Positions 7,378 through 28,712 of a DNA stretch of 51,701 bases are shown one piece after another. The stretch is from Ruminiclostridium sp. GTDB lineage: Bacteria; Bacillota; Clostridia; Oscillospirales; Ruminococcaceae. A program made the translations under genes and the position numbers. The stretch covers positions 94,994 through 146,694 of the forward strand of contig JAGBMA010000092.1 in the NCBI GenBank assembly GCA_017635095.1, written 5' to 3'. The number at the start of each line of letters is the position of its first letter. The first letter of the stretch is position 1. The notes under the pieces were generated by a model. The model was not told the origin of the DNA, did not search any database, and was given only the letters and a program-made list of their open reading frames with translations.

Positions 7378-7508
7378 ATATGATCTCCCGTTTAACTCAC
7401 CAAAAATGGGTGCAGCGTCACGCTGCCGCAGGTCAAGGGCGCGCAGCCCTTGTGCCGTCTGCAAAGACAGCGCGCAGGCGCTTTGGTGAGTTATCCGCGT
7501 GATCGTAT
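7378..7508. repeat. Four-hairpin intergenic repeat, copy A, inside inverted terminal repeats
   Basis: The core, 7411-7482, folds as four tandem hairpins on the plus strand: GCAGCG-tca-CGCTGC; AAGGGC-gcgca-GCCCTT (with an extra C-G at its base); GTCT-GCAA-AGAC; and AGCGC-gcag-GCGCT. It shares TGCCGC-x-GG, AGCCC, GCCGTCTGC-x-AAGAC and GCAGGCGC with copies at 10114 and 28632. The core is flanked by 27-bp imperfect inverted repeats at 7378-7404 and 7482-7508 (22 of 27 matched, the inner 11 perfect: AACTCACCAAA / TTTGGTGAGTT). It lies between the deacetylase start and the yajC terminator. It may be a mobile miniature element or a conserved RNA fold. Confidence 0.7.
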
Positions 7509-7552
7509 TTTTCAATGCGGTTTTATTATTTCCGCGCGAGCCGTTTTTATGC

Positions 7553-7584
7553 AAAAAAATAACAGACCCGGTGATCGGGTCTGT
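7553..7584 (-). terminator. Terminator after yajC
   Basis: ACAGACCCG and CGGGTCTGT (7562-7570, 7576-7584) pair around GTGAT; read on the minus strand the stem is followed by TTATTTTTTT. Confidence 0.9.
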
Positions 7585-7603
7585 ATCATGGATCAGCAGC
7601 GTC

Positions 7604-7963
7604 TTACTTCTTTATCGTAACTTTCTCAACATCATCGTGAGCAGTGCGGTTCTCGGCGATAGCGGTCTTGAGCACACGAATACGGTTGCGGTCGCTTCCG
7701 GTCTCGACAACTACGGTATCTTCCTGTATGCTGAGCACTCTGCCGATAATGCCGCCGATAGTCACTACCTCGTCGGCTACCTGAAGGCTCTCGCGCATTT
7801 CCTTTTCCTTCTTGGCGCGGTTCTTCTCCGGGCGAATGAGCAGAAAGTAGAATACAACGAGCATAAGCGCAAGCGGAACGATCGTTATGAGCAGTGATGT
7901 AATGTTAAATCCCTGAGCGTTGGGATCTGCTGCTGTGGCAGCCATTAATGTAAAAATGTCCAT
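7604..7963 (-). CDS. yajC: Preprotein translocase subunit YajC
   Basis: 119 residues. An N-terminal segment MDIFTLMAATAADPNAQ precedes one membrane helix (residues about 20-43, ITSLLITIVPLALMLVVFYF), then the family motif LIRPEKNRAKKEKEMR and a small cytoplasmic domain with ADEVVTIGGIIGRV. YajC associates with the SecDF-type accessory complex of the Sec translocase. The start at 7963 is set by AAAGGA seven bases upstream; a longer frame begins at 7999 but overlaps the ribosome site. It has its own promoter and terminator. Confidence 0.95.
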   Translation of the reverse strand: MDIFTLMAATAADPNAQGFNITSLLITIVPLALMLVVFYFLLIRPEKNRAKKEKEMRESLQVADEVVTIGGIIGRVLSIQEDTVVVETGSDRNRIRVLKTAIAENRTAHDDVEKVTIKK

Positions 7964-8002
7964 ATTTACGTCCTTTCTTTTGTGCAATTTTCCTGTCATT
8001 CT

Positions 8003-8031
8003 ATTATACTATATTTTTTTCCTAATTGCAA
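8003..8031 (-). promoter_or_regulatory. Promoter of yajC
   Basis: On the minus strand: TTGCAA (8026-8031), 17-base spacer, TATAAT (8003-8008). Confidence 0.8.
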
Positions 8032-8072
8032 GTATTATTTGCAACAATTTATCGTCATATTTTGCATTCCGC

Positions 8073-8110
8073 AATAACAAAAGTGACAGCGGACACAAAG
8101 CCGCTGTCAC
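8073..8110 (-). terminator. Terminator after ilvE
   Basis: GTGACAGCGG (8083-8092) pairs with CCGCTGTCAC (8101-8110) around an 8-base loop; minus-strand reading continues TTTTGTTATT. Confidence 0.88.
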
Positions 8111-8137
8111 TTTACATTCGGTCATATACTCAACGTA

Positions 8138-9202
8138 TTATTCAACCACCTGGGTCCAGCCGAATTCGTCCGGGATACGACCCCACTGGATACCGGTAAG
8201 TGTATCATAGAGCATCTGGGAGATCGGTCCGATCTTACCGTCGTTGATCTTCATTACAAGGTCACCGTACTTGAGCTCGCCGATAGGAGAAATAACAGCA
8301 GCAGTACCGGTTCCGAACGCTTCCTTGAGTGTTCCTTTCTTGTAGTTATCAACGATCTCGTCGATCGAGAGAAGTCTCTCGGATACTTTGTAGCCCTTTG
8401 CTCTGAGGAGCTCGATCATGGACATTCTTGTGATACCGCCGAGGATAGAGCCGCGGAGCTCAGGTGTAACGACTTCGTCGCCGAGAACAAACATAACGTT
8501 CATGGAGCCGACTTCTTCAACGTACTTTCTCTCAACGCCGTCGAGCCAGAGGGTCTGCTCATAGCCCTGTTCAGCAGCTTCTTCCTGACCCTTGAGGGAG
8601 ATAGCGTAGTTAGCGCCTGCCTTTGTGAAGCCGGTACCGCCGATGACTGCACGGACATACTTCTGCTCAACAAAGATCTTTACGGGCTCGATACCCTTTT
8701 CATAGTAAGCGCCTACGGGCGAGAGGATAACGCAGAAAATGAGGTGTTTTGCGGGGTGAACGCCTACATGGTGGTCAACCGCGAATACGAACGGACGGAT
8801 ATAGAGGGAAGTATCCTTCTCTGTGGGGATCCAGTCCTGGTCGATCTTTACGAGTTCCTTGATAGCCTTGATGACGAAATCGCCGTCAAACTTCGGTATG
8901 CAGAGACGCTCGCAGGAGGTGTTCATTCTTGCCATATTCTTTTCGGGGCGGAAGAGCTGGATCTTGCCCTCTGCGGTGCGGTAAGCCTTCATGCCCTCGA
9001 AGCACTCCTGAGCGTAGTGGAGCACCATAGAAGCGGGGTCGAGCTCGAACGGACCATAGGGAACTATTCTCGCGTCATGCCAGCCTTCGCCGTCATCATA
9101 GTTCATAACGAACATATGGTCGGTGTAGTAGTTGCCGAAGCCGAGCTTTGTCTGGTCGGGCTTCTGCTTGGGATTAGTGGTCTTTGTTACTTTGATCTCC
9201 AT
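8138..9202 (-). CDS. ilvE: Branched-chain amino acid aminotransferase
   Basis: 354 residues, PLP-dependent fold type IV. It transfers the amino group between glutamate and the keto acids of leucine, isoleucine and valine in the cytoplasm. Motifs: LHYAQECFEGMKAYR, FRPEKNMARMN, the lysine in GFTKAGANYA expected to bind PLP, LWLDGVERKYVEEVGSMN, and GTGTAAVISPIG. The length fits the about 350-residue type. The start at 9202 follows AAGGAAGG; an upstream in-frame start at 9313 lies before the promoter and is not used. Single-gene unit with promoter and terminator, divergent from the RNA at 9341. Confidence 0.96.
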   Translation of the reverse strand: MEIKVTKTTNPKQKPDQTKLGFGNYYTDHMFVMNYDDGEGWHDARIVPYGPFELDPASMVLHYAQECFEGMKAYRTAEGKIQLFRPEKNMARMNTSCERLCIPKFDGDFVIKAIKELVKIDQDWIPTEKDTSLYIRPFVFAVDHHVGVHPAKHLIFCVILSPVGAYYEKGIEPVKIFVEQKYVRAVIGGTGFTKAGANYAISLKGQEEAAEQGYEQTLWLDGVERKYVEEVGSMNVMFVLGDEVVTPELRGSILGGITRMSMIELLRAKGYKVSERLLSIDEIVDNYKKGTLKEAFGTGTAAVISPIGELKYGDLVMKINDGKIGPISQMLYDTLTGIQWGRIPDEFGWTQVVE

Positions 9203-9251
9203 AATATTGCCTTCCTTTATACTTTTTTGTCCTGTGGGACTATTCTTATAT

Positions 9252-9280
9252 ATTATAGCACTTTTTCTGCAATTTGTAAA
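9252..9280 (-). promoter_or_regulatory. Promoter of ilvE
   Basis: On the minus strand TTTACA (9275-9280), 17 bases, TATAAT (9252-9257). The plus-strand promoter at 9307 is 26 bases away, facing outward. Confidence 0.8.
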
Positions 9281-9306
9281 TACATAAATTGCAAATGGCA
9301 GGAATA

Positions 9307-9335
9307 TTGACAAAAAAGTTGAAATGTGGTATTAT
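9307..9335 (+). promoter_or_regulatory. Promoter of the structured RNA at 9341
   Basis: TTGACA (9307-9312), 17-base spacer, TATTAT (9330-9335). A start around 9341-9343 would begin exactly at the base of the long closing stem of the RNA. Confidence 0.8.
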
Positions 9336-9340
9336 ATACT

Positions 9341-9513
9341 TGCGACATAAACCGAATAATTGTGTATCTCACCGTGTATTTCTATCTATGGTAGAAATAT
9401 AGGCTTTTTCGTCACGGTGAGGTAGGTACTCTCTTCTTCGTTTCGGTTTGTGTCGCAGCAATCAAGGCTTGTATTTTTACGGTGCGCAGCCTTGTTGCTG
9501 CGCATTTTTGTTT
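9341..9513 (+). ncRNA. Rod-shaped non-coding RNA candidate, 6S-like architecture
   Basis: About 170 nt between a strong promoter and a terminator. A 16-bp closing stem, TGCGACATAAACCGAA (9341-9356) with 9442-9457, is complete with one G-U pair. Above it is an asymmetric open region (11 nt 9357-9367 and 20 nt 9422-9441), then CTCACCGTG/CACGGTGAG (9368-9376, 9413-9421), then TATTTCTA/TAGAAATA (9377-9384, 9392-9399) with a 7-nt loop. Long rod, central bubble, terminal stem and size recall 6S RNA, which binds sigma-A RNA polymerase; I see no sequence match that proves this. No convincing open reading frame lies inside. The next gene, 9554, could be reached by read-through. Confidence 0.55.
9484..9513 (+). 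terminator. Terminator of the structured RNA, with a competing pairing
   Basis: GCGCAGC (9484-9490) and GCTGCGC (9497-9503) form the stem, followed by ATTTTTGTTT. Upstream CAAGGCT (9463-9469) can instead pair with AGCCTTG (9488-9494), which would break the terminator stem. Confidence 0.8.
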
Positions 9514-9553
9514 GTGCGGGAAACGGGCGCACTGTGGAAAGGAACTTCCAAAA

Positions 9554-10045
9554 ATGAATTATTGTTCAAAATGCGGAAAGCCACTTGAGGAAGGGAGCGC
9601 ATTCTGCGCAAACTGCGGAGCTGCGGCAGAGGTCGGAGTCGTACCGAACGCATCTGGATCCAACAGCGGGAAAAAGTCCGGCCTTTCAAATCTGAAGATA
9701 GATATTTTTTCAACAGATGAACCGCTCAAACCCAAAATAATAATACTTCTTGTTCTGATAGCATTGGTTGGCTGGGGCGGTCTTGGTTACGCTATTGAAG
9801 GTCTTTTCAAAATATCATTGCCTGCGCCCATAGCTCTGATATTTGTTATCCCTCTAATTGCGTCGATCATTGTTCAGGGAATACTGACGTTCATTTTGTG
9901 CTGGAACTTTCTCAAATACAGAATGGTGTTTCTCGTCCCGACACTGATCTTATCATTATTCGGCTGTTGCTTGTATTTTATTATTATCCCGATCGTAACT
10001 ATCAGACATATAATAACGTTCTTTATAAGGAAAAACAAGCGCTGA
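9554..10045 (+). CDS. Zinc-ribbon membrane protein, function unknown
   Basis: 163 residues. It starts with a zinc ribbon, CSKCGKPLEEGSAFCANCG (two CxxC pairs), then a G/S-rich linker and about three membrane helices from residue 65 to 155 (IIILLVLIALVGWGGLGYA, IALIFVIPLIASIIVQGILT, LVPTLILSLFGCCLYFIIIP), ending in a basic tail. The start at 9554 has AAAGGAA at 9538-9544. Such zinc-ribbon plus helix proteins are common in clostridia and mostly uncharacterised. No promoter of its own is apparent; expression probably depends on read-through from the RNA upstream. Confidence 0.75.
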   Translation: MNYCSKCGKPLEEGSAFCANCGAAAEVGVVPNASGSNSGKKSGLSNLKIDIFSTDEPLKPKIIILLVLIALVGWGGLGYAIEGLFKISLPAPIALIFVIPLIASIIVQGILTFILCWNFLKYRMVFLVPTLILSLFGCCLYFIIIPIVTIRHIITFFIRKNKR

Positions 10046-10068
10046 ACATATTTATTTTTAACTCAAAT

Positions 10069-10105
10069 ACCCCGTGAGCATCAAAACTCACGGGGTGATT
10101 TTTTT
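10069..10105 (+). terminator. Terminator after the zinc-ribbon gene
   Basis: ACCCCGTGAG (10069-10078) pairs with CTCACGGGGT (10087-10096), followed by GATTTTTTT. Confidence 0.9.
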
Positions 10106-10113
10106 ATATATCC

Positions 10114-10192
10114 GGTGCAGGGCTTGCCCTGCCGCGGGGACCGGGGCGGCGTCAGCCCCGGAACTGCCTGTTAAGGCGCGCGGAGGCGCTGC
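10114..10192. repeat. Four-hairpin intergenic repeat, copy B
   Basis: Plus-strand hairpins: GCAGGGC-tt-GCCCTGC; CCGGGGC-ggcgtca-GCCCCGG; GCCT-GTTA-AGGC; GCGC-gcgga-GGCGC. The order and spacing match copies A and C, and differing bases change in pairs. It begins right after the upstream terminator and ends at the stop codon of the alpha-galactosidase gene (10193). Preceding TATATATCC is shared with copy C. Confidence 0.65.
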
Positions 10193-12385
10193 TCAAACCT
10201 CTTTGAAATAGGCGATATAGCTCTGGAAATCGCCCCACATATTGGGGATATGGAAGCCGTTGTTCATGAGGAACGCGCCGGAGAACACCTTGCCGGACTC
10301 TTCATGGAGGTAGTTTCTGGACTTATCGAGCCCGCGGAGTTTTATACGATGCTCGAAAACGCTGGGTTCTTTCAGCACCTGCACATATTCGAGGAGCGTC
10401 TCGCTCTTGTCCTTTGAGACGAACTGCCACGCGTCGAAGCGGTCGTTTGCGAAGGGATCTCCGAGACGGTAGTAATCGCCGGTGCGGACAAGGGGGTTGT
10501 ACTTGTTGAATTCGGCGATCTGGTCTTTAATTGCAGCCTTATCGTCATCGCTTATCCTTGTGACATCGAGCTCATAGCCGAACGTGCCGACCATTGCAAC
10601 GTGTCCGCGAGTTTTGAACGGCGTGATCCTGCCGACGCAGTGGTTGGGGCTGTCGGAAACATGGGCGCCGAAGCAGGAGCAGGGGTAGCACATGGAGGTG
10701 CCGTACTGGATCTTGAGGCGCTCTATGGCATCTGTGTCATCGCTCGTCCATATCTGCGGCGAATAGTAGAGCATTCCCGCGTCAAACCGCGAGCCGCCGC
10801 CTGCACAATTCTCCAGGAGCAGGTCGGGGAAGTCGGTGAGGAGCCGTTCCTGAAGTTCATAAACGCCGAGGACATAGCGGTGCCATATCTCGCGCTGGCG
10901 TTCCGGCGGCAGTATCTCGTTGCCGACCTCGCAGAGCTGGCGGTTCATATCCCACTTGACGTACTCGATATTCGCGGAGGAAAGAATCTCGTGCATTCTT
11001 CCGTAGATGTAGTCGCGTATCTCCTTGCGGGAGAAGTCGAGAACGAGCTGGGAACGGGCGGTGGTGCGCGGTCTGCCCTCTATGTGCAGGCACCAGTCGG
11101 GGTGTGCCTTGTAAAGTTCGCTGTCGGGGCTTATCATTTCCGGCTCGAACCAGATACCGAATTTCAGTCCGATCTTGTTGACCTCATCTACCAGGTATTT
11201 CAGACCGCCTTTGAGCTTTTCTTCATTTACGAACCAGTCTCCGAGGGAGGAACGGTCATCGTTCCTGTGCCCGAACCAGCCGTCGTCCATTACGAGCATC
11301 TCTATGCCGGCTTTTTTGGCTTCTCTTGCAATATCGAGGAGCTTCTCCGTATCGAAGTTGAAATATGTCGCTTCCCAGTTGTTTATGAGGATCGGACGGC
11401 GGATATCTTTCCATTTGCCGCGGATAAGGTTGCTGCGCATGACATCATGGAAATTGCGGGACATCTTTCCGAGACCTTCCGCAGAGTAGGTCATTATGAC
11501 CTCGGGAGCCTGGAAGCTCTGGCCGGGCTCAAGGTGCCATGAAAAGTCGTAGGGGTTTTCGCCTATCACGATACGGGTCTTTTCGTACTGGTAAACATCA
11601 GCCATAGCGAGGAAAGAACCCGACCAGCACAATGCAAAACCGTAGCACTCGCCGTAGTCCTCTGTTGCGGTGTGGTCGCAGATCGCAATGAAGTTATTGT
11701 GAGCGTGGCTTGTGGAACCGCGGTTGGAGTCTATGGACTGCTTTCCGAAGCGGAGCGGGAAACGCTGAACATGGCGCTCTCTCGCCCATGTGCCGTAGAG
11801 CGTTATCATATCGTAGTCCATTCTGTCGAGATCGACGCAGCAGGACAGGAGCCTCTGGAGCTCAAGCGGGTCGGAGCCTTTGTTTGTGACCTTGACGGAG
11901 CGGGTGATGACATCGACGTTCTCGAAAACGCTGTATTGCAGTATTATTTCGAGACCGGTATGAGGGTCTTCACAGATAAGATCAAGGGAGGTGACTTCGC
12001 TGTCGTTGTTGGCGAATGTCGCGGGCAGCCCTTCGAGCTTTTTCTTGCCCTTGTAGATCTTGTGGTCTTTATAGTATATCTCGCAGGCGGTCATGCCGAG
12101 CTTATCTTTTACTTGCATACAGGGCTCGCGGAAATCCGCAACGCCGCTTGTGGAGTATTCTATCGGCGCGCAGTCGAAAGAATGGGGCCCCATAGCGTCG
12201 TGAGTTGCAGGAACAAAGGGCGCCCCGTCCGGGATACGCAGGTTGTATGTAAGATCGGTCTCGGGAACAGTTGCTCCGTAGTATAAATGGAGAATGTTTT
12301 TACTTTCTGTGATATGGAATGCGTAGCTTGAAGCAGGAGTATCGAGCTTGAAGACGCGGGCTTTTTCGTTGTAGATGATCGGCAT
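10193..12385 (-). CDS. Alpha-galactosidase, glycoside hydrolase family 36
   Basis: 730 residues, the usual size of clan GH-D family 36 enzymes, which release alpha-1,6-linked galactose from melibiose and raffinose-type sugars. An N-terminal beta domain (to about residue 340) precedes the TIM barrel. Visible motifs: NNWEATYF, MLVMDDGWFGHRNDD, FGIWFEPEMISPDS, the nucleophile aspartate in EYVKWDMNR, ENCAGGGSRFD, and the acid/base aspartate in WTSDDTDAIERLK. No signal peptide, so cytoplasmic. Start at 12385 follows AAAGGACAATAAAA. No sugar transporter lies next to it in the window. Its stop codon abuts repeat copy B. Confidence 0.95.
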   Translation of the reverse strand: MPIIYNEKARVFKLDTPASSYAFHITESKNILHLYYGATVPETDLTYNLRIPDGAPFVPATHDAMGPHSFDCAPIEYSTSGVADFREPCMQVKDKLGMTACEIYYKDHKIYKGKKKLEGLPATFANNDSEVTSLDLICEDPHTGLEIILQYSVFENVDVITRSVKVTNKGSDPLELQRLLSCCVDLDRMDYDMITLYGTWARERHVQRFPLRFGKQSIDSNRGSTSHAHNNFIAICDHTATEDYGECYGFALCWSGSFLAMADVYQYEKTRIVIGENPYDFSWHLEPGQSFQAPEVIMTYSAEGLGKMSRNFHDVMRSNLIRGKWKDIRRPILINNWEATYFNFDTEKLLDIAREAKKAGIEMLVMDDGWFGHRNDDRSSLGDWFVNEEKLKGGLKYLVDEVNKIGLKFGIWFEPEMISPDSELYKAHPDWCLHIEGRPRTTARSQLVLDFSRKEIRDYIYGRMHEILSSANIEYVKWDMNRQLCEVGNEILPPERQREIWHRYVLGVYELQERLLTDFPDLLLENCAGGGSRFDAGMLYYSPQIWTSDDTDAIERLKIQYGTSMCYPCSCFGAHVSDSPNHCVGRITPFKTRGHVAMVGTFGYELDVTRISDDDKAAIKDQIAEFNKYNPLVRTGDYYRLGDPFANDRFDAWQFVSKDKSETLLEYVQVLKEPSVFEHRIKLRGLDKSRNYLHEESGKVFSGAFLMNNGFHIPNMWGDFQSYIAYFKEV

Positions 12386-12447
12386 TTTTATTGTCCTTTC
12401 GTTTGAGTTTTCTGTGCGGTTTCGCCCCGCAGACAGTGAAGATCGTT

Positions 12448-12535
12448 TTTGACAGTCCCTGCCGGCGGTGGCGACTTCATTTCTGTCACCGGCGACAGAA
12501 ACGAAGCAAAGAACGCCGCCCGCTGCATTGTCAAA
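12448..12535. repeat. Nested inverted-repeat (large hairpin) element
   Basis: Outer arms TTTGACA (12448-12454) and TGTCAAA (12529-12535); middle arms GGCGG.GGCG and CGCCGCC; inner arms CTTCaTTTCTGTC (12475-12487) and GACAGAAAcGAAG (12494-12506) with one A/C mismatch and a 6-base loop. The whole 88 bases can extrude as one interrupted hairpin. It lies in the 470-base stretch (12386-12856) between the alpha-galactosidase and permease genes, which holds no convincing gene. The same stretch also has a GGCGGG/CCCGCC hairpin at 12812-12830 that may end the permease transcript. Confidence 0.6.
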
Positions 12536-12539
12536 GTAG

Positions 12540-12701
12540 CTCGGGGGACCGCACAGGGGCTTTAAAGCATACTGCGGACAGATCGTTCCGGGGGTTAAGC
12601 CAGACTTGTTCAGCGAGCTCTTTGACTATTTGCGGGAACAGGGTGAAGATCCCAGAGAACGGTTTTTCAGCTTCGCGCGGTTCATCACACTGTTCCTCTG
12701 A
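12540..12701 (+). pseudogene. Possible gene remnant, 53 codons without a start
   Basis: An open frame between the TAG at 12537 and the TGA at 12699 reads protein-like in its second half: CGQIVPGVKPDLFSELFDYL, then REQGEDPRERFFSFARFITL. It lacks an ATG and a ribosome site. The composition resembles the C-terminal end of a real protein rather than a shadow frame, but I do not recognise the family. It lies just after the nested hairpin. It could be a decayed gene or chance. Confidence 0.22.
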
Positions 12702-12856
12702 ACTTCGGGACGGCTCAGACTGTTAAGTGGAGAGCGAAGATGCTTTACGCAGGGGCGCTCGCTTCGACGGCGGATTGCAAAAGGGGCTGACGGTTACGGA
12801 GCTGATTAATTGGCGGGTACGGATCCCGCCGTCGTTTGTCTCCGACAGGGAGATCT

Positions 12857-13723
12857 TTACAGAACCGGTTCATTGCCCTCGTTGTGGACTTCTTTCGTGT
12901 GAAGCACAAAAACCGTTACAAAATACAGCATCACCGAGATAACAAGAGCTGTCCCTATGCTTACGATAACGTTGAGCTGGCTTATCTCTCCTGCAGCTGA
13001 TGCCGTTCCTGCTGCCGACAGCAGTGCGTTCGCGGATTCGCCGGAGCCCGCAGCCGCGCTCATGGCTATTGACGACAGCGCAAACGGGTTGAATCTGTCC
13101 ACCCGGAAGAATGACAGTACCGTCGGGAGTATCATGTGCATTATGATAACGGCTACGACAGCGATATTTGAGCTTCCGGTGCATAATCCTATGCAGAACT
13201 GCACCGCCGTGGAGAATGCAAGATATATCCCGGCGCAAAGAGCGGAAAGCCATACCATATCCCATTTCAGCTCGGAGGGGAAGAAGATGAGCGACATTCC
13301 CGCGCCCGCGATCATTGCCGCGACAGACGCAGCAAATATAACGAGCGGGTAGATAAGGAATTTTGGGAGTGTGTATTTTTCCGCGGTAAGTCCGGCACAT
13401 TGCGGTATAAGCACCGAGCGTTTCTTCTGTTCGCCGCCCGCCGCCGCCTTGAACAGGAACAGTATCACGATCGAGCCTATTCCCGCCACCTGTTCCGCGT
13501 TGTACATTATCATATCCGAGGCAGAGAACGATGTGTAAAGATCGAGCATCTGGGTATAAGTCTCTTCGTCCGGCATGGCGTCTTTGAGGGTCTGCATCAT
13601 TCCGCTCATCATGCCGAACATAACCGGCGACATGACCGCAAGGGCGAGCATAACGAGTATGACTGCCGCAAGCCGTCCGCCCCGGGAAAAGAACATCATT
13701 TCTTTTCTCAGTCCGTTTATCAT
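12857..13723 (-). CDS. ABC transporter permease (ABC-2 type)
   Basis: 288 residues with about six membrane helices: one at 18-40 (VILVMLALAVMSPVMFGMM), then helices around 80-95, 120-145, 155-180, 185-205 and a final one near 260-280. Between the first two is a short extracellular loop (DAMPDEETYTQMLDLYTSF). The start codon overlaps the stop of the ATPase gene by one base (TAATG), so translation is coupled and the two form one exporter. The transported compound is not evident. It is the last gene of the run that starts at 19530. Confidence 0.8.
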   Translation of the reverse strand: MINGLRKEMMFFSRGGRLAAVILVMLALAVMSPVMFGMMSGMMQTLKDAMPDEETYTQMLDLYTSFSASDMIMYNAEQVAGIGSIVILFLFKAAAGGEQKKRSVLIPQCAGLTAEKYTLPKFLIYPLVIFAASVAAMIAGAGMSLIFFPSELKWDMVWLSALCAGIYLAFSTAVQFCIGLCTGSSNIAVVAVIIMHMILPTVLSFFRVDRFNPFALSSIAMSAAAGSGESANALLSAAGTASAAGEISQLNVIVSIGTALVISVMLYFVTVFVLHTKEVHNEGNEPVL

Positions 13724-14631: not shown

Positions 14632-14632
14632 T

Positions 14633-15337: not shown

Positions 15338-15379
15338 AATTACCTCATATTATGTGCGGAATGCGGGACGTATTATGGG

Positions 15380-16054: not shown

Positions 16055-16060
16055 GCGGAA

Positions 16061-19725: not shown

Positions 19726-19766
19726 AATAAAGTATGATTTCTTGCATTTAAAAGGAGACGATATAT

Positions 19767-20387: not shown

Positions 20388-20388
20388 C

Positions 20389-23300
20389 TTGAAAAAAGCA
20401 CTTCTTAAAAGCTCGCTCCGCGAGATACGTTCGACCCTCAGCCGCTTTCTCTCTATCTTTGGTATAGTTGCAATAGGCGTAGGCTTTTTTGCCGGCGTAA
20501 AGACAGCCGCTCCCGATATGCGCAATACCGTGGACGATTACCTTGACGGCTCGAAGCTCATGGATATGCGGCTCGTTTCGACATACGGCTTCGATGACAA
20601 CGACATAGCGGCGCTCCGTGAGATCGGGGGCGCGGAGGTGTATCCTTCGTACTTTACCGACCTTGTGGCGCATTACGCCGACCGTTCTCCTGCAGCCGCA
20701 AGACTTATCGCGGTCAGCGACGCGGTAAAGGAAGAAAAGCTCAACATACTTGCTCTCGTTGACGGACGTATGCCGGAAAAACCGGGGGAATGCGTCGTCA
20801 ATTCCACAAAGATGATGGGCGGCCCCACGATCGGCGACAGCGTGACATTCACCGATAACAGCGGCGCTGTGCCGGAGGACATCATATCGGTGAACGAGTA
20901 CACTATCGTCGGCAAGGTGCGCTCCGCCATGTACATAGACAAGACCACCCGAGGCAGCACTTCCGTGGGCAACGGGTCCATAGAGTCCGTATATTACATT
21001 CCCGAGGAGAACTTCTGCGTTGAGTATAACACCGAGGTTTATCTGCGGTTCCCGGAGCTTGACGGATATAATTGCTACGAAAGCGATTACAAGGACGCCA
21101 TGGACGAGCTCAAGGACAGGGCGGAGGACATAGGCGAAAGACGCGCAGAGGAACGCTTTGCGGATATAAAGCGGGAAGCCGACGAGAAACTTGCGGACGC
21201 GGAAAAAGAACTTGCAGACGCGGAAGCCGAGTACAACGACAAGATAGCCGACGGTGAGAAGGAGATCTCGGACGGCGAGAAAGAGATCGCAGACAATGAG
21301 CAGAAGATAGTCGACGCGGAAGATGAGATCGCGGAAAATGAGCAGAAGCTCATCGACGCGGAAGCCGAGATCGCCGAGAACGAACAGAAGCTCATTGACG
21401 CGCAGGCAGAGATAACCGACGGTGAAAAGAAGCTTGCGGACGGCGAAAAAGAGATCGCCGACAATGAAAAGAAACTCTCTGACGGCGAAAGCGAGATCGC
21501 GGACAACAGAAAGAAGCTCGATGATGCCCGGAAAAAGTATGACGACGGGCTTAAAGAATACAATGACGGACTGAAGAAGTACAACGACGGTCTGGCGGAA
21601 TATGAGAAGAACCTCGCGGAGCTGAACTCGCGGAAAGAGCAGCTCGAAGCCGCCTGGGAAGAATATAACGCGGGTGCGGAAGCGCTTGAAGCCGGAAAAA
21701 CTCAGCTTTCGGAGCAGAAAGCCGCGGTAGAGGCGGGGTTGGCACAGGCTGCCGCTGCTATGGGCGTGCCGGAGATCACCGATGAGATGCTCGTGCAGCT
21801 CGCACAGGCGGATCCGCAGATGGCACAGCTCGCCGCGGGAAAGCAGGCGATAGCCGATGCGGAAGCGGAGATATCGCAGAATGAAGCTGTTCTTGCAGCT
21901 TCAAGAGCACAGCTCGAAGAAGGTCAGTCCCAGATCGACGAGGGGAGCCGGCAGCTCGAAGAGGGCAAAAAGACCCTTGATGACAGCAGGAAACAGCTTG
22001 ATGAAGCAGCGGCAACGCTGGAAAATGCAAAGAAAGAGATAGATAACGGAGACGCGGAGCTTGCAAAAGCGGAAAACGAGCTCGCCGACGGCAGAAAAAA
22101 GCTTGAGGACGGGAAAAAGGAGCTTGCCGACAACAGGGCAAAGATCGAGGACGCAAAACGCGAGCTTGCCGACGGCATAAAAGAGATCGAGGACGCAAAG
22201 CAGGAGGTCGCGGACGGCTGGGTCGAGCTGAACGACGGCAAGACCGAAGTTGAAGACGGCAAAAAGGAGCTTGCGGACGCGAAAGTCAAACTCGAAGACG
22301 GCAGAAAAGAACTTGAAGACGGAAAGAAAGAGGGCGCGGAAAAGATTGCCGACGCAAAAGCGGAGCTCGATGATGCGCGAAGCAAGATCGACGACCTCTC
22401 GAAGCCGAAATGGTACGCGTTTACCCGCGACGGTAACCCCGGATACTCGGAATACGGCGAGAATGCCGACAGGATCAATAATATCGCCAGCGTGTTCCCC
22501 GTGTTCTTCATAGTTGTGGCTATGCTTGTCTGCCTTACAACGATGTCGCGTATGGTGGAGGAGCAGCGTGTCGGTATAGGTACACTGAAAGCCCTCGGCT
22601 ACGGAAACGCCAGCATCATCTTCAAGTATATGCTTTACGCGGTATCGGCAACTCTGCTGGGCTGCGTCGTAGGATTTACGGTGGGTATGTATCTGTTCCC
22701 ATACGTTATAATCACGGCTTACGGTATGATGTACGACATTCCCGGGATCTCACTCGGTATAGACCCGGTCACCGCGGCTTCGGCGACTCTCGTGTTCACG
22801 GCTGCGACTGCGCTCACGGTGTACTTCACGTCCCGCTCGGCGCTTGCGGAACAGGCTGCGCAGCTCATGCGGCCGAAAACCCCGAAAAACGGCAAGCGGA
22901 TACTGCTTGAGCATATAACGCCGATCTGGAAACACTTCAATTTCAGCGGCAAGGTGACTGCGCGCAACCTTTTCAGGTACAAGCGGAAGATGCTCATGAC
23001 GGTCATCGGTATTTCCGGCTGTACGGCGCTTCTGCTCACGGGACTTGCGCTTTACGATGCGATAAACGACATTATCGCCAAGCAGTTCAACGATATCCAG
23101 GATTACCAGGGTATCCTTGCGTATGACCGCGAGGAACACCCCGAAGCTGCTGACGAGGCGGCGGATATAATAGCTGCAAATGGCGGCGAGAGCATAAGGG
23201 TGTATCAGAAGCTCGTCAAGGTGAATGCAGCGGGAAAATCCGTCAATGCTTATATTGCAGTCCCCTCCGAGCCGGAGAAGTTCACCGAATTCTTCGACCT

Positions 23301-24078
23301 GCGGAGCAGGACCACCGGCGAGAGATTCAGCCTTACAGATGATACCATTTATATAGATGAAAAGACGACGCTGCTGCTCAACGGGATATCTGCCGGCGAC
23401 AGTGTTGAGATCGAGCTCAGCGAGACGGAAAAATACACTGTCACGGTGACGGCGCCCTTTGAGAACTATCCGAACCACTACGTCTATATGACCGAGGGCG
23501 GATATGAGCGCATATTCGGTGAAAAGCCGGAGTACAATGTGCTCTACTTCCGTCACGGGCTCGGCACGGGAGACGAGCAGGATAAACTCGGCGAGGAGCT
23601 GCTCGCGGTGGAGGGAGCCCTCAACGTAACGTTCAACTCCAACACCATGGCCACATTTACCCAGATGCTCGATACCCTGAGCATGGTCATCGTGGTCATT
23701 ATCGCCTCCGCGGGACTGCTTGCATTCGTGGTCATGTATAATCTCACGAACATTAACATTACCGAACGCATAAGAGAGATAGCGACGCTGAAAGTGCTCG
23801 GTTTCTACGACGGCGAGGTTGACAGCTATATCTTCCGCGAAAATATCCTTCTTGCGCTTCTTGGCACCGGCGCGGGTCTTGTGCTCGGAATTTTCCTTGC
23901 AAGGTTCGTTATAACAACCGCCGAAGTCGATCTCGTGATGTTCGGAAGGAACATATATCCGCTGAGTTTCGTGCTCGCGGCGGCGGCTACGATGCTGTTC
24001 TCGGTGCTGGTCACACTTGCGATGCACAAGAGGCTCAAAGATGTGAACATGATAGAAGCGCTTAAATCTGTGGAATAA
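20389..24078 (+). CDS. Giant FtsX-type ABC permease with extracellular coiled coil
   Basis: 1,229 residues. Start TTG at 20389 with GGAGG at 20378-20382; the in-frame ATG at 20359 lies inside the previous gene without a ribosome site. Order: one helix at about 15-35 (FLSIFGIVAIGVGFFAGV), extracellular MacB-like domain to 230, coiled coil about 235-670 built of seven-residue units such as ELADGEKEIADNE, interrupted at about 454-484 (MGVPEITDEMLVQLAQ), FtsX domain 1 (about 697-830), a second helix and extracellular domain (about 865-1080), FtsX domain 2 (about 1092-1229). It resembles the large FtsX-like permeases of gut Firmicutes. No ABC ATPase is adjacent. Confidence 0.85.
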   Translation: MKKALLKSSLREIRSTLSRFLSIFGIVAIGVGFFAGVKTAAPDMRNTVDDYLDGSKLMDMRLVSTYGFDDNDIAALREIGGAEVYPSYFTDLVAHYADRSPAAARLIAVSDAVKEEKLNILALVDGRMPEKPGECVVNSTKMMGGPTIGDSVTFTDNSGAVPEDIISVNEYTIVGKVRSAMYIDKTTRGSTSVGNGSIESVYYIPEENFCVEYNTEVYLRFPELDGYNCYESDYKDAMDELKDRAEDIGERRAEERFADIKREADEKLADAEKELADAEAEYNDKIADGEKEISDGEKEIADNEQKIVDAEDEIAENEQKLIDAEAEIAENEQKLIDAQAEITDGEKKLADGEKEIADNEKKLSDGESEIADNRKKLDDARKKYDDGLKEYNDGLKKYNDGLAEYEKNLAELNSRKEQLEAAWEEYNAGAEALEAGKTQLSEQKAAVEAGLAQAAAAMGVPEITDEMLVQLAQADPQMAQLAAGKQAIADAEAEISQNEAVLAASRAQLEEGQSQIDEGSRQLEEGKKTLDDSRKQLDEAAATLENAKKEIDNGDAELAKAENELADGRKKLEDGKKELADNRAKIEDAKRELADGIKEIEDAKQEVADGWVELNDGKTEVEDGKKELADAKVKLEDGRKELEDGKKEGAEKIADAKAELDDARSKIDDLSKPKWYAFTRDGNPGYSEYGENADRINNIASVFPVFFIVVAMLVCLTTMSRMVEEQRVGIGTLKALGYGNASIIFKYMLYAVSATLLGCVVGFTVGMYLFPYVIITAYGMMYDIPGISLGIDPVTAASATLVFTAATALTVYFTSRSALAEQAAQLMRPKTPKNGKRILLEHITPIWKHFNFSGKVTARNLFRYKRKMLMTVIGISGCTALLLTGLALYDAINDIIAKQFNDIQDYQGILAYDREEHPEAADEAADIIAANGGESIRVYQKLVKVNAAGKSVNAYIAVPSEPEKFTEFFDLRSRTTGERFSLTDDTIYIDEKTTLLLNGISAGDSVEIELSETEKYTVTVTAPFENYPNHYVYMTEGGYERIFGEKPEYNVLYFRHGLGTGDEQDKLGEELLAVEGALNVTFNSNTMATFTQMLDTLSMVIVVIIASAGLLAFVVMYNLTNINITERIREIATLKVLGFYDGEVDSYIFRENILLALLGTGAGLVLGIFLARFVITTAEVDLVMFGRNIYPLSFVLAAAATMLFSVLVTLAMHKRLKDVNMIEALKSVE

Positions 24079-24235
24079 CGATATGTAGTATTATCCGGCA
24101 GGCGCCGCACAACATATATTATATGTGCCGCAGAGACTGCAATAAAATATACGGAAAAAATTTTGTAAAAGTGAAACTTTTTTACCGAAATCTCCTACTA
24201 CCTATATGTAGGGGGTAAAAAGCGAGGTGAGCTTG

Positions 24236-24778
24236 TTGGGAAGCGATGCGCTTGATGCCTATTTTAACAAAGTCTATGGCGAGACGTTCCGCGCGGTCTC
24301 CAGATTCGTTGTCAGCAAATGCGGCAGCGTACAGGATTCCGAGGATATAGTCCAGAATATCTATACCCGCTTTTATCAGCGTATTGCAAAAAAGGGGTAC
24401 GACGATATCGAGAGCGCCGAGGCTTTCGTTATCAATATCGCGAAATTTGAATGCAGGAACTACTTCGGTTCGGTCAAGAAGCACAGCGTAAGCACAAACT
24501 TCTCAGAGTACTCCGAAGAACAGATGGTCGAGATCGAAAAGGAAATGTCCAAAGAGCAGAAAAACCTTGAGGACGTCCTTTGCAATGAGATCCTCGCAAA
24601 ACAGATCTTCGACGATATTGCCAGAGACGACCCGGTCATTGGTCGTATATTCTATCTTCACTTCGTATGCGATATGAAGCTCGATGAAGTCGCGAAAGAG
24701 CTCGACCTTACGCTCTCTTCCGTCAAGAACAAGCTTTATCGTACCATAGAAAGACAGAAGAAAAAATTTGACATCTGA
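24236..24778 (+). CDS. RNA polymerase sigma-70 family factor (ECF-like)
   Basis: About 180 residues. Region 2 (DSEDIVQNIYTRFYQRI, about residues 32-48) and region 4 helix-turn-helix (MKLDEVAKELDLTLSSVKNK then LYRTIERQKKKF) with no region 1 or 3, so an ECF-type factor. Three in-frame starts compete: GTG 24227, TTG 24233, TTG 24236. The ribosome site GAGGTGA at 24224-24230 overlaps the GTG, so TTG 24236 fits best. Upstream 24079-24235 has TGAAAC at 24171, which resembles an ECF -35, and CCTAC/GTAGG flanks at 24194-24212; a self-regulated promoter is possible but unproven. The next gene is probably its regulator. Confidence 0.82.
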   Translation: MGSDALDAYFNKVYGETFRAVSRFVVSKCGSVQDSEDIVQNIYTRFYQRIAKKGYDDIESAEAFVINIAKFECRNYFGSVKKHSVSTNFSEYSEEQMVEIEKEMSKEQKNLEDVLCNEILAKQIFDDIARDDPVIGRIFYLHFVCDMKLDEVAKELDLTLSSVKNKLYRTIERQKKKFDI

Positions 24779-24811
24779 TTTATCATTATTATATGAAAGG
24801 AGGTTCAGTAT

Positions 24812-26683
24812 ATGAATACCAACGACTTTTATAAAGAGCTGTTTGAGAAATATGCTCTCGATGAAGAGAAGATCAGACGCAATGCTATAAAAGCCGCTAA
24901 AACTCCCGCATGGCAGAGAGCGGTCGGCGCTCACTGGAAGTCCGCTGTCGGCGCTGCGGCTGCAGTTGCGGTAACGGTCGGCGCGGTTGCTTATACTGTC
25001 GGAAACAATGCCGGCAATATCGACATTGATCCACAAGAGAACCTTCTTTCCGCATCTCAGAGACTTCGTGACGCGGAACAGAACTATATGTCCGCTGCAA
25101 CAGAAGATGAGAGCAAGGCTGAGATATATGTTACTTTCATAGAGGATATCTGCTTCAGCGATATGTCCGTATCGCTTTCAGCCCTCCCGGAAAGTGAAGA
25201 AATAGTTATCGAGTGCCTCTACCTTAACGACGGTACGGTTATCCGCGGCGCAGAAGAGATCGAAGCATACGCGGAAACAAGCGGCAATCTCAGCACTATC
25301 GCGGGTGCAAAGCTCAGCGCGCCCGTAAGATCTTACAGAGATATCCAGGATCTCTCGAAGGTATATCTTGCAGAGCTCGGCTCCGATGATATAAACGACG
25401 AGACATTCTCACCCATAGATTACGATGACGTGGATCCGCTCAGAAATGCTTATGAGTTCATATCCACCACCGCACTCGCGGAATCTACCACAACTCCGTT
25501 CTCCTTCGAGAGCGAAGTGACATCGGATACGGTCTCCGAAGTAACCAGCAGCGATGATACAACAGAGCCGCCCGAGGATACGGAAGAACTCGATCCCGTA
25601 GATGAACCCGAGGACGATGAAGAGACAGACGAGCCCGACGAAGGTCAGACCGAGGAAACCGAGGAAAGCAGCACTGATGTTTCCGAGACTTCCGCGCCCG
25701 AAGAAGAGAGCGAGCCCGCAGAAACAGAAGTGACTACCGCAGAAACTACGGTGGCTTCTTCCGAGATCACGGATCCGCCGGAAGTGGGTCTTATGACCCA
25801 GATCTATCAGCTCAATGTTGAAAACGCGCTCGATACACTGCTCATAAAGGATAACGCTATCGTTCTCACAAGGAACGAGGTCTATATCTACAAAGTGGGC
25901 GGGATAATGAGCGGCATTGAGAACGTTTATGAGATCTCAAACCCGAAAGTGACATATACCGACGAAAATACAGTTATCATCACAGGCTGTGGAGCAAGCG
26001 GCAGGAGGAACACGATCCTCGTACTCGATATCAAACGCGGCTCGGCTGACCTCAAAGACGCAGGTGAGAGCCTTGGTGAGGCTGAGATCGGTACCGTGAA
26101 CTGCAGCACCTCGGAGGGCAAGTACTTCCTCAAGGCTGTATCGGCTTCTACAACGTATGTGTACGAGCTTATGACCGGCGATGACGGGATCCAGTTCAGA
26201 CCCCTGTTCGAGTCCGCGGGCGTGGTTTCTCCCGCAGGCTACAGGAACGGCTGGCTGTGGTACACGGCGGCAGATGAGAGTATGAGATATAATCTGTACT
26301 CCTTCAACTGCAGCGACGGTTCCACCAAGCTTGAATACAATTTCGGAAGCGTTTGCAAGGTACGCAGAAGCAAGTCCTTCGACAGCTTCATCATAAGCAC
26401 CAATGACAGCGAGAGCAGCGAGCCCCAGAGCTATGTCTTTGATACGGCAAGAAGCCAGCTCGTGCCCGTTGCGGTAAACGGTGAAGCTATGATAGCTGTG
26501 AAAAACGGAACTATATATGTAGGCTTTGACGGCAAGAACTACACGGTATCTTCCGAGGGAGTGCTCACGGAAGCTCAGCATCATGTGGATTACGTCAATA
26601 AGCCCGTGAGCAAATACACCATTCTCTCTTCCGACTCAGAGAAGGTAGTAGTTGCAGAAAAAACGGATGCATGGAGCAACTGA
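24812..26683 (+). CDS. Single-pass membrane protein with acidic linker, putative sigma-factor regulator/sensor
   Basis: 623 residues. A short basic cytoplasmic part (1-40), one helix at about 42-64 (AVGAAAAVAVTVGAVAYTVG), an extracellular region of about 150 residues, a linker at about 210-326 made almost only of E, D, T, S and P, and a C-terminal domain of about 295 residues with repeating beta strands that looks propeller-like (NAIVLTRNEVYIYKVGG, NTILVLDIKRG, RNGWLWYTAADESMRYNLYS). It starts 33 bases after the sigma factor with AAAGGAGG. Gene pair and topology fit an anti-sigma factor whose outer domain senses a signal; the cytoplasmic part does not match a known anti-sigma domain that I recognise. 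Confidence 0.65.
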   Translation: MNTNDFYKELFEKYALDEEKIRRNAIKAAKTPAWQRAVGAHWKSAVGAAAAVAVTVGAVAYTVGNNAGNIDIDPQENLLSASQRLRDAEQNYMSAATEDESKAEIYVTFIEDICFSDMSVSLSALPESEEIVIECLYLNDGTVIRGAEEIEAYAETSGNLSTIAGAKLSAPVRSYRDIQDLSKVYLAELGSDDINDETFSPIDYDDVDPLRNAYEFISTTALAESTTTPFSFESEVTSDTVSEVTSSDDTTEPPEDTEELDPVDEPEDDEETDEPDEGQTEETEESSTDVSETSAPEEESEPAETEVTTAETTVASSEITDPPEVGLMTQIYQLNVENALDTLLIKDNAIVLTRNEVYIYKVGGIMSGIENVYEISNPKVTYTDENTVIITGCGASGRRNTILVLDIKRGSADLKDAGESLGEAEIGTVNCSTSEGKYFLKAVSASTTYVYELMTGDDGIQFRPLFESAGVVSPAGYRNGWLWYTAADESMRYNLYSFNCSDGSTKLEYNFGSVCKVRRSKSFDSFIISTNDSESSEPQSYVFDTARSQLVPVAVNGEAMIAVKNGTIYVGFDGKNYTVSSEGVLTEAQHHVDYVNKPVSKYTILSSDSEKVVVAEKTDAWSN

Positions 26684-26710
26684 TAAGTCAGTTCCCCGAA
26701 TATTAAGATA

Positions 26711-26738
26711 CCCCGCCTGTGAAATATTGCAGGCGGGG
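26711..26738. terminator. Hairpin between convergent genes, likely two-way terminator
   Basis: CCCCGCCTG (26711-26719) pairs with CAGGCGGGG (26730-26738). T-runs are weak on both sides (TTTACGATT; TATCTTAATATT). Confidence 0.6.
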
Positions 26739-26808
26739 TTTACGATTGTATAGCCTATAAACGGGATTTCCCGGGATAGTCCGCGGCCGGTGTCGCCTGC
26801 TTCGCGGA

Positions 26809-28422
26809 TCAGAGCGTGAATGTTCCGCCGGTCTGAGCCTTGCGCCACTCGACGTACTCTTCGTAGGTGCCGAGTTTGTCCCAGCAGCCCTTGTCCTTGA
26901 TCTCAATGATGCGGTTTGCAACAGTCTGAACGATCTCGTGGTCGTGAGATGCGAAAAGAACAACGCCCTTGAAGTCGCGAAGACCGTTGTTGACGGCAGT
27001 GATGCTTTCGAGATCGAGGTGGTTGGTCGGACGGTCGAGTATAAGCACGTTGGACTTGAAAAGCATCATGCGGGAGAACATACACCTTACCTTCTCGCCG
27101 CCGGAAAGCACGTTTACCGGCTTGAAGATATCGTCGCCGGAAAAGAGCATTCTGCCGAGAAATCCGCGGAGATACGTTTCCGTAACATCATCGCTGTACT
27201 GGCGGATCCAGTCGAGTATGGACATCTCGCAGCCTGCAAAGAAATGGTCGGAGTCAACGGGGAAGTAGCTCGTCGTGATCGTGTTGCCCCATTTGTAGCT
27301 GCCCTCATCGGGCTCCAGCTCGCCCGTGATGATCCTGAACAGGGTCGTTATCGCTATCTCGCTTTCGCCGAGGAATGCGATCTTGTCCTCGCGTCCGACG
27401 GTGAACGATACATCATCGAGCACTTTTACGCCGTCAACCGTTTTCGAGAGCCCGCTTACCTGCAGTATATCCTTGCCGGGTTCGCGCTCCATATCAAAAC
27501 CTATGAACGGATAGCGGCGGCTTGATGCGGGCATTTCCTCGACTGTGAGCTTGTCGAGAAGCTTTCTTCTCGATGTTGCCTGCTTGGACTTGGATTTGTT
27601 GGCGGAGAAGCGCTGAATGAAGGTCTGGAGCTCTTTGATCTTCTCCTCGTTCTTCTTGTTCTGCTGCTTTATCATGCGCTGTATGAGCTGTGACGATTCG
27701 TACCAGAATTCGTAGTTGCCCACATACATCTTTATCTTGCCGTAGTCTATATCTACCGTGTGGGTGCAGACGTTGTTCAGGAAGTGGCGGTCATGGGAAA
27801 CAACTATGACTGTTCCGAAGTACTCCGCAAGGAAATCTTCAAGCCATGCGACCGCATCTATATCCAGATGGTTCGTAGGCTCGTCCATGAGGATTATGTC
27901 GGGGTTTCCGAAAAGAGCCTGTGCGAGAAGAACCTTGACTTTCTCGTTACCCGAAAGGCTCGACATATTGCTGTAGAGTATGCTTTCGTCAAGTCCGAGA
28001 CCCTGCACGAGTTTGGAAGCGTCGCTCTCGGCTTCCCAGCCGTTGAGCTCTGCAAACTCGGCTTCGAGCTCACTTGCGCGGTTCCCGTCCTCTTCGGAGA
28101 AGTCCTCCTTCGCGTAGAGTTCGTCCTTTTCCTTCATGACCTCGTAAAGCCGCTTGTTGCCCATTATAACGGTGTCCTGAACCGTATATTCGTCAAAGGC
28201 GAAGTGATCCTGGCGCAGCACCGACATACGCAGATCCTTCGGGATCGTAACGGTACCGGTGGTGGGCTCAAGCTCGCCGTTGAGTATTTTCAGAAATGTG
28301 GATTTTCCCGCTCCGTTGGCGCCGATAACGCCGTAGCAGTTCCCCTCTGTGAAAAGCAGATCGACGTTCTTGAATAGCGTCTGACCGCCGAACTGTAAAC
28401 TAACATCTGAAACTGTAATCAT
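26809..28422 (-). CDS. ABC-F family ATPase with degenerate second site
   Basis: 537 residues, two nucleotide-binding domains, no membrane part. Domain 1 is intact: Walker A GANGAGKST, signature LSGNEKVK, Walker B ILMDEPTNHLD. An arm/linker follows (MIKQQNKKNEEKIKELQTF, RFSANKSKSKQATSRRKL). Domain 2 has GESEIAITT in place of Walker A (no lysine) and LILDRPTNHLD, an arginine where the catalytic glutamate is expected; its signature VLSGGEKVR is intact. ABC-F proteins act on the ribosome. It resembles the YbiT/YkpA-like group; members of that group may also vary at site 2. Own promoter at 28481. Confidence 0.9.
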   Translation of the reverse strand: MITVSDVSLQFGGQTLFKNVDLLFTEGNCYGVIGANGAGKSTFLKILNGELEPTTGTVTIPKDLRMSVLRQDHFAFDEYTVQDTVIMGNKRLYEVMKEKDELYAKEDFSEEDGNRASELEAEFAELNGWEAESDASKLVQGLGLDESILYSNMSSLSGNEKVKVLLAQALFGNPDIILMDEPTNHLDIDAVAWLEDFLAEYFGTVIVVSHDRHFLNNVCTHTVDIDYGKIKMYVGNYEFWYESSQLIQRMIKQQNKKNEEKIKELQTFIQRFSANKSKSKQATSRRKLLDKLTVEEMPASSRRYPFIGFDMEREPGKDILQVSGLSKTVDGVKVLDDVSFTVGREDKIAFLGESEIAITTLFRIITGELEPDEGSYKWGNTITTSYFPVDSDHFFAGCEMSILDWIRQYSDDVTETYLRGFLGRMLFSGDDIFKPVNVLSGGEKVRCMFSRMMLFKSNVLILDRPTNHLDLESITAVNNGLRDFKGVVLFASHDHEIVQTVANRIIEIKDKGCWDKLGTYEEYVEWRKAQTGGTFTL

Positions 28423-28480
28423 TATCCGATGACCTCATTCTGTGTATTTGCCTGTTCCGCGGGAACAGACTGCACTAACC

Positions 28481-28509
28481 ATTATATCATATACTATTTA
28501 ATAATACAA
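28481..28509 (-). promoter_or_regulatory. Promoter of the ABC-F gene, with leader hairpin
   Basis: On the minus strand TTGTAT (28504-28509), 17 bases, TATAAT (28481-28486). In the leader CTGTTCC/GGAACAG (28452-28468) forms a tight hairpin with a 3-base loop. Confidence 0.8.
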
Positions 28510-28572
28510 ATCGCTTTTTGAACAAAATCAACACATTAAGCACCGTAATTTTGTATATTTTATGCATAAAAT

Positions 28573-28602
28573 AAAAGCTTCCGAGCTGTCTCGGAAGCTT
28601 TT
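28573..28602 (-). terminator. Terminator of the ftsZ transcript
   Basis: A perfect 13-bp stem AAAAGCTTCCGAG/CTCGGAAGCTTTT with a 4-base loop; minus-strand reading continues TTTTATTTTAT. It lies 113 bases past the ftsZ stop, behind repeat copy C. Confidence 0.9.
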
Positions 28603-28631
28603 CGTTTTATCAAGTCTATATATCCAGCTTA

Positions 28632-28712
28632 CGATGCAACGGAACGTTGCCGCGGGACGGGGGCGCGTAGCCCCAGCGCCGTCTGCGAAGACCGCGCGCC
28701 CGCAGGCGCGCT
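28632..28712. repeat. Four-hairpin intergenic repeat, copy C
   Basis: Plus-strand hairpins: GCAACG-gaa-CGTTGC; GGGGC-gcgta-GCCCC; GTCT-GCGA-AGAC; GCGCGCC-cgca-GGCGCGC. It ends three bases from the ftsZ stop codon and is transcribed with ftsZ before the terminator at 28573. The third hairpin carries a GNRA tetraloop, as in copy A. Confidence 0.7.

Follow-up and report, generated by a model that had tools for sequence, protein, structure and literature searches.

Three intergenic copies of a folded repeat, lying in a 51,701-nucleotide stretch of DNA from Ruminiclostridium sp. (assembly GCA_017635095.1, contig JAGBMA010000092.1, positions 94,994 to 146,694; hereafter the window), are members of a family dispersed in their own genome and in some close relatives. 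The element is a mobile element resembling miniature inverted-repeat transposable elements (MITEs), the covariation among its copies is strong, and the fold itself appears to be under selection, since the core keeps its shape while its letters change. The explanation put forward here, in which our confidence is about even, is a non-autonomous MITE-like family, found in part of a Ruminiclostridium-like genus of the rumen, whose structured RNA module is retained in untranslated regions (UTRs). Its core of about 65 nt would consist of a hairpin b that pseudoknots with the linker beyond it, a hairpin c that probably does likewise, and a plain hairpin d that follows. An initial annotation of the window, made from the letters alone, had recognised the three copies as four-hairpin elements with paired base changes; the stems indeed covary, but the key structure is the predicted loop-linker pseudoknot, which that annotation had not seen.

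Covariation and pseudoknots

Read on the minus strand, the three copies have a common order of a variable hairpin a (H_a) followed by hairpins b, c and d (H_b, H_c and H_d), which were hairpins 4, 3, 2 and 1 of the initial annotation; linkers and loops are also common. The three copies stand in the sequence at the places reported there and were recovered by a covariance model, R1, built from 18 copies of the own genome including window copies 1 (L027) and 3 (L001). Its matches at 7409-7473, 10114-10182 and 28633-28697, all on the minus strand, score 85, 48 and 80 bits, and the next-best match in the window scores 20 bits.

Folding energy alone is weak evidence for the fold, with z values against shuffles of -0.7 to -4.1 over the three copies and both strands, and an unremarkable value for the ftsZ copy (copy 3). 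The excess covariation suspected earlier survives both the slid-partner controls and a tree-aware null. In a set of 17 distinct copies, both-side changes are seen at 12 of 18 pairs, and pairing holds in 92% of cells, compared with 33-47% after the partners are slid; among 97 distinct copies from seven relatives, with pseudoknot pairs counted, the figures rise to 19 of 24 pairs and 96.5% of cells, compared with 26-49%. The tree-aware test re-placed substitutions on the branches of a FastTree tree, itself built from the alignment under test, at the parsimony count of each column, and scored them by a G statistic with average product correction, for cores with at most six gaps. With 134 distinct cores and 12 simulations, eight pairs were significant, six of them in helices and two outside (11-21 and 12-20). 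With 165 rows with flanks, short-flank copies excluded, and 150 simulations, pairs 12-20 and 11-21 ranked second and fourth, above every null value, and one more non-helix pair, 54-58, tied to the loop types of H_d, reached an E of 0.007.

Pairs 11-21 and 12-20 connect the hairpin-b loop with a triplet immediately past the stem of that hairpin, and hairpin b with this linker is a predicted H-type pseudoknot (pseudoknot b). Its cells are Watson-Crick in 388 of 397 cases, with four A-C, five other and no G-U, and its triplets take seven combinations (CGC/GCG, TGC/GCA, AAC/GTT, TCC/GGA, CCC/GGG, GAC/GTC and CAC/GTG). The three window copies alone already differ here (TGC/GCA, AAC/GTT and CGC/GCG), and the loops quoted in the initial annotation, GCAA, GTTA and GCGA, contain one side of the pseudoknot. 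Hairpin c has the same layout and probably forms a pseudoknot like that of b (pseudoknot c), with CGC/GCG nearly invariant and 385 of 399 cells Watson-Crick. It is compensated in TACTC/GAG (two rows, from two species) and TATGC/GCA (one row) and uncompensated in eight rows; because loop and linker are nearly invariant, it is unproven.

The copies in the window

The three copies, their parts and the genes beside them are as follows.
7380..7506, minus strand: copy 1, full-length MITE-like element of subtype A; its imperfect terminal inverted repeats are at 7380-7404 and 7482-7506 (inner part ..AACTCACCAAA)
7370..7379, no strand: copy 1 target-site duplication, one side (ATTTTTCAAT; perfect 10-bp direct repeat, offsets similar in other subtype-A copies)
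7507..7516, no strand: copy 1 target-site duplication, other side, the counterpart of 7370..7379
7409..7473, minus strand: copy 1 structured core (H_b 7456-7469, H_c 7434-7452, H_d 7412-7426; R1 match of 85.4 bits)
7470-7481, minus strand: copy 1 H_a, upstream of the core, read from sequence
7453..7463, minus strand: copy 1 predicted pseudoknot b, loop 7461-7463 (TGC) with linker 7453-7455 (GCA)
6296..7333, minus strand: polysaccharide deacetylase, downstream of copy 1 (Pfam Polysacc_deac_1)
10114..10192, minus strand: copy 2, directly after the alpha-galactosidase stop
10114-10182, minus strand: copy 2 core (H_b 10165-10178, H_c 10141-10161, H_d 10117-10132; 48.4 bits)
10162..10172, minus strand: copy 2 predicted pseudoknot b, loop 10170-10172 (AAC) with linker 10162-10164 (GTT)
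10193..12385, minus strand: alpha-galactosidase (GH36), host gene of copy 2 (Pfam Melibiase, 5e-160)
28632..28712, minus strand: copy 3, 3 bases after the ftsZ stop
28633-28697, minus strand: copy 3 core (H_b 28680-28693, H_c 28658-28676, H_d 28636-28650; 80.3 bits)
28677..28687, minus strand: copy 3 predicted pseudoknot b, loop 28685-28687 (CGC) with linker 28677-28679 (GCG)
28651..28667, minus strand: copy 3 proposed pseudoknot c, loop 28665-28667 (CGC) with linker 28651-28653 (GCG), unproven by covariation
28716..29999, minus strand: ftsZ, host gene of copy 3 (Pfam Tubulin and FtsZ_C)

Copy 1 lies between yajC and the polysaccharide-deacetylase gene, upstream of the start of the latter. A further copy (L013) stands about 180 bases left of the window edge, at positions 94749-94814 of contig C14 of the own genome.

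Family size and distribution

Blastn searches of the own genome returned 26 matches with copy 3 as query (E<=10), 35 with copy 1 (E<=1) and, from the 40 of 65 candidates that were scored, at least 40 with copy 2 (E<=1). That the copies belong to a larger family was borne out by the covariance model: R1 found at least 80 matches at E<=1 and at least 74 at E<=0.01 in the own genome (G000), the latter a lower bound because 150 of 1523 candidates were scored. At E<=0.001, under stricter filters than in the own-genome search and with at most 53 candidates scored per genome, R1 matched 11 of 99 genomes, namely the own genome, 9 of 59 congeners and, weakly, 1 of 39 others. The congeners carry at least 48 (G058), 33 (G010), 27 (G023), 25 (G057), 20 (G059), 16 (G042), 15 (G033), 7 (G051) and 1 (G050) matches. 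A second model, R2, was run against 394 genomes of the order; among the at most 13 candidates scored it found the own genome and, with one and two weak matches, two distant ones, so that absence elsewhere in the order is unproven. For the comparisons below, 182 distinct copies were gathered from 8 genomes. Among the FtsZ relatives found, 9 of 19 are named Ruminiclostridium, and several come from rumen or gut samples. In two genomes of another family (L285 in G271 and L287 in G391), hairpin c, a (C)CCGCG linker, hairpin d and ACC stand in the same order; the c-d module may be wider than the genus.

The element matches no Rfam family. There were no Rfam matches in the window and sub-threshold matches only at copy 3, and 11 further loci gave three tRNAs and nothing else above the gathering threshold. 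Copy 1 had no match among phages and plasmids, nor did one subtype-A pattern, searched exactly, in IMG/VR.

Ends, target duplications and empty sites

The copies fall into subtypes, assigned by simple text patterns that leave 75 of the 182 copies as 'other'. Subtype A has terminal inverted repeats (..CCCGGATAACTCACC), with similar ends in copy 1, L236, L242, L243 and L028, and, in five of the eight copies with a recognisable left end, 10-bp duplications that have 0-1 mismatch and lie at similar offsets. The ends of subtype B, TCAGTYTGTCRA, have 15 matches in the own genome, several of them inside genes, against one for the reversed control. A third group of copies stands within long composite arrays, mostly between convergent genes. 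Terminal repeats are not universal: copy 3 has only a 7-bp imperfect end pairing, and none were noticed in copy 2.

In a flank test that kept 170 of the 182 copies, those with short flanks being excluded, the left and right flanks of seven copies matched each other better than in any mismatched pairing, where about 0.5 were expected. Seven copies outside the window, mostly with ends like TCAGTYTGTCRA, sit in terminators with the terminator hairpin on both sides, the repeats being 24-40 bp long and different in sequence at each locus. Empty sites are found in relatives. At the TyrRS site the element is missing from G010, G057 and G033, each with a single corresponding terminator, and in the own genome two terminators surround it (G042 has a different terminator, and the G059 sequence breaks off shortly past the gene). 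At the mreB site, one terminator and no element are seen in G010, and the own genome again has two around the element. At ftsZ a relative (L141) is without the element, with flanks too diverged for a precise empty site. The two terminator copies around the element at L112/L180 are identical in their inner part, and in the lower stem a paired block distinguishes them.

It is these terminal inverted repeats with target duplications, both in part of the copies, together with the empty sites that make the element MITE-like. Of the earlier suggestion of a 'REP/MITE-like' element, REP standing for repetitive extragenic palindrome, the MITE half stands, and the REP half fails on the GTAG motif and on Y1 transposases, as set out below. 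No transposase was recognised within about 250 bases of 13 of the 15 subtype-B end matches, in a fragmented assembly and without a systematic parent search.

The proposed explanation would have one or more putative transposases act in trans. A terminator that extruded into a cruciform and was then cleaved at the base would give the duplication of a whole hairpin; that duplication suggests that the transposition target is recognised by shape, with the length of the duplication set by the palindrome and not by the enzyme.

Placement and retention between species

With gene positions taken from crude calls based on open reading frames, gaps between convergent genes hold 71 of the 149 copies with both neighbours called; on 35 long stretches alone they hold 22 of 56 copies and make up 68 of 331 gaps. 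In convergent gaps the core lies nearer the co-directional stop in 21 of 25, 12 of 15 and 24 of 25 copies of three subtypes, and in 3 of 6 of subtype A. As the initial annotation had noted, two window copies begin within three bases of a stop codon, copy 2 abutting alpha-galactosidase and copy 3 lying 3 bases from ftsZ. Its further claim of transcription with the upstream gene holds for many copies but not for all, since in tandem contexts 37 copies face the sense way and 21 the other (13 and 10 on the long stretches), and one of the vertically inherited copies is antisense to both of its neighbours, which share a strand. At four loci (L203, L239:4629, L245 and L249), the upstream gene seems to take its stop codon from the loop of hairpin a (GCGC-TGAC-GCGC or TAAC).

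Ten groups of copies have both flanking genes homologous across species; one flipped group was excluded from the identity and best-match comparisons, leaving nine (11 pairs). Core identity over the 11 pairs is 0.72-0.97, a range inflated because only copies still recognised by R1 could enter, and fourfold sites are 0.44-0.74 identical in the ten pairs with usable sites. Between G000 and G010, three pairs are mutual best matches, each ranking 1 of 76 and 1 of 19: L032/L202 (core identity 0.97, fourfold sites 0.69), L044/L196 (0.83, with 0 fourfold sites) and L160/L200 (0.83, fourfold sites 0.55). L196 differs from L044 by two paired changes in H_b (GTCT/AGAC versus GCCC/GGGC), and L200 from L160 by two in H_d (CCAGCG/CGCTGG versus CCGGCA/TGCCGG). 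Descent of these three copies between species appears to be vertical, and two of them carry paired stem changes in place. At L032, L202:8121 and L240:10302 a copy is kept in three species, antisense between two apparent purine genes (labels read from the DNA, without a family search), with a core 97% identical.

RNA or single-stranded DNA

After insertion, the core would persist in 3' UTRs and in the spacers between cistrons because it forms a compact RNA structure with a putative role in shielding or separating transcripts, for example as a barrier to exonucleases or read-through. A fuller version, which we offer tentatively and well short of even confidence, is that a portable pseudoknotted RNA module has spread into untranslated regions by cruciform-guided insertion, which duplicates the terminator hairpin and so preserves termination, and has then become a host-kept device for RNA stability or insulation that evolves by compensatory change in place.

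Several findings weigh against the RNA explanation. The loops of pseudoknot b are very short, so that its geometry is tight, and a 3-bp hairpin could compete for its place; pseudoknot c is without covariation support, with E above 300 for each of its three pairs (165 rows). One-sided changes also occur, two in H_c of L044 and one in H_c of L160, and in six of the nine ortholog groups the partner is not the mutual best match, or is so one way only; in those groups conversion or independent insertion is possible. The orientation bias in tandem contexts is mild, and Y1 and DUF772 searches in element-bearing genomes identified no transposase for the element. Finally, the stems other than the outermost pair of H_b hold 8 G-U against 23 A-C on the strand read here (the outermost pair has 79 against 18), and G-U is no commoner in copies co-oriented with the gene before them (7 versus 17). 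These numbers are small and part of the A-C count comes from one shared subfamily; taken as they are, G-U being rarer than A-C leaves selection on sense-strand RNA without support, and the opposite strand or single-stranded DNA fits better. Control stems of terminator-like hairpins show 40 G-U and 33 A-C among 1775 pairs, so that the test has little power here.

The rival that survives best, doubtful in our judgement and yet to be taken seriously, is that the fold works as single-stranded DNA, with a transposase in trans binding the folded core and selection acting on transposition. Folded strands are bound by TnpA-REP, by IS200/IS605 transposases and by integron integrases, and the pairing of loop to foot recalls guide pairing in IS200-type transposases. 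The scarcity of G-U in the stems and its absence from pseudoknot b would follow, identical cores stand at unrelated sites, and G010 has one complete Y1 transposase gene. Yet Y1 does not track the element among the four element-bearing genomes searched, GTAG is not conserved, terminal repeats with target duplications would point to a DDE-type enzyme, and the fold persists in place in vertically inherited copies, something that transposition by itself would not call for. RNA function is put only moderately ahead of single-stranded DNA, because retention in place favours RNA and the scarcity of wobble pairs favours DNA. With well over 100 natural variants of one fold, some at orthologous sites, the family offers a ready test of RNA versus single-stranded DNA selection on dispersed bacterial repeats, a standing question for REP-like elements.

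Unlikely, in our estimate, is that the fold is not selected and the paired changes are products of hairpin-templated repair (quasipalindrome correction), or of gene conversion in short tracts by which copies exchange whole hairpins. Hairpin modules do reassort within genomes (19 combinations of H_c and H_d in 19 G010 copies), the terminators duplicated at L112/L180 are distinguished by a paired block, and another copy is closer in at least one direction in six of the nine ortholog groups. Such processes, however, do not create complementarity between a loop and a linker that lies beyond that loop's hairpin, and three loci look vertically inherited, two with paired changes. Less probable still is an ordinary family of REPs or bacterial interspersed mosaic elements (BIMEs) spread by REP-associated tyrosine transposases (RAYTs): the copies are dispersed and palindromic, with a bias to gene ends and convergent gaps, and G010 has its one complete Y1 gene, but GTAG comes after the core in 19 of 182 copies, all of G000, Y1 is not associated in the four element-bearing genomes searched, and terminal repeats with target duplications are present. 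Chance GC-rich hairpins, with which the ordinary folding energy of the ftsZ copy for its composition would agree, are refuted by the copy number, the covariation controls and the empty sites.

Comparison with known systems

According to a review (PMC10969869), bacterial MITEs such as BOX, RUP, SPRITE and QMITE are short and non-autonomous, with target duplications, intergenic placement, structured transcripts and composite clusters. On that account, the present element has in common with them its shortness, its lack of autonomy, its target duplications, its intergenic sites and its composite clusters; it is unlike them in a pseudoknotted core kept by covariation, in its placement at gene ends and in the duplication of whole terminator hairpins. 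Neither 'pseudoknot' nor 'compensatory' occurs in the main text of that review. A description of this family was not found in the literature searched, as far as its coverage went, many subscription papers lying outside it.

REPs have a gene-end bias. They and REPINs are dispersed palindromes, as is the element, and differ from it in that it has a loop-linker pseudoknot, terminal repeats and target duplications, with GTAG not conserved and Y1 not associated. The transposase TnpA-REP (RAYT) recognises the folding of one strand, according to PMC8266576. GTAG occurs anywhere in the core and near flanks in 29 of 182 copies, and on the other strand in 63, mostly inside the variable loop of H_c or H_b and not at the foot. 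Y1_Tnp was searched in 60 genomes including the own, 36 of them of the genus; four of the ten element-bearing genomes of the genus, G000, G010, G023 and G033, were among them. It does not accompany the element there: G010 has one complete gene, G000 and G023 have fragments, and G033, with 15 copies, has none, and element-free congeners such as G008 and G013 have complete Y1 genes. Membership of the REP/RAYT system is unsupported, with GTAG not conserved and Y1 not associated in these four genomes. At two contig ends (L082 on C32 and L083 on C214), fragments of an IS200-type transposase lie beside a terminator-like hairpin. In integron attC sites and IS200/IS605 ends, structure is conserved more than sequence; unlike them, the element has a pseudoknot, and no Y1 association was seen among the genomes searched.

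IS1272 and TnSha1, of the IS1182 family, insert into terminator hairpins without a sequence consensus, according to PMC4923244. The present element likewise targets terminator hairpins, in the seven copies with duplicated hairpins, but TnSha1, on that same account, deletes part of the hairpin, and here the whole hairpin stands on both sides. DUF772, the IS1182 transposase domain, was found in two of the five element-bearing genomes searched, complete in G042 and as a fragment in G000. As a driver IS1182 is unsupported, given this distribution and the other ends of the IS1182-type element of G042.

Composite and nested copies

Near-identical copies lie 80-450 bases from contig ends of G000 (for example L010, L055, L059, L066 and L168); with many copies so placed, the assembly therefore breaks beside longer composite repeats (..AAGTTTTTTTGGAAAGAGAGAGGGG..). 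In composite arrays (L002, L003, L004, L051 and others), hairpin modules are followed by AGCTGCCGCG, a bidirectional terminator and CGCGGCAGCT, often with an inverted second array added that faces the convergent gene. At L178:3221-3342, a copy holds another palindromic repeat inside the loop of hairpin c.

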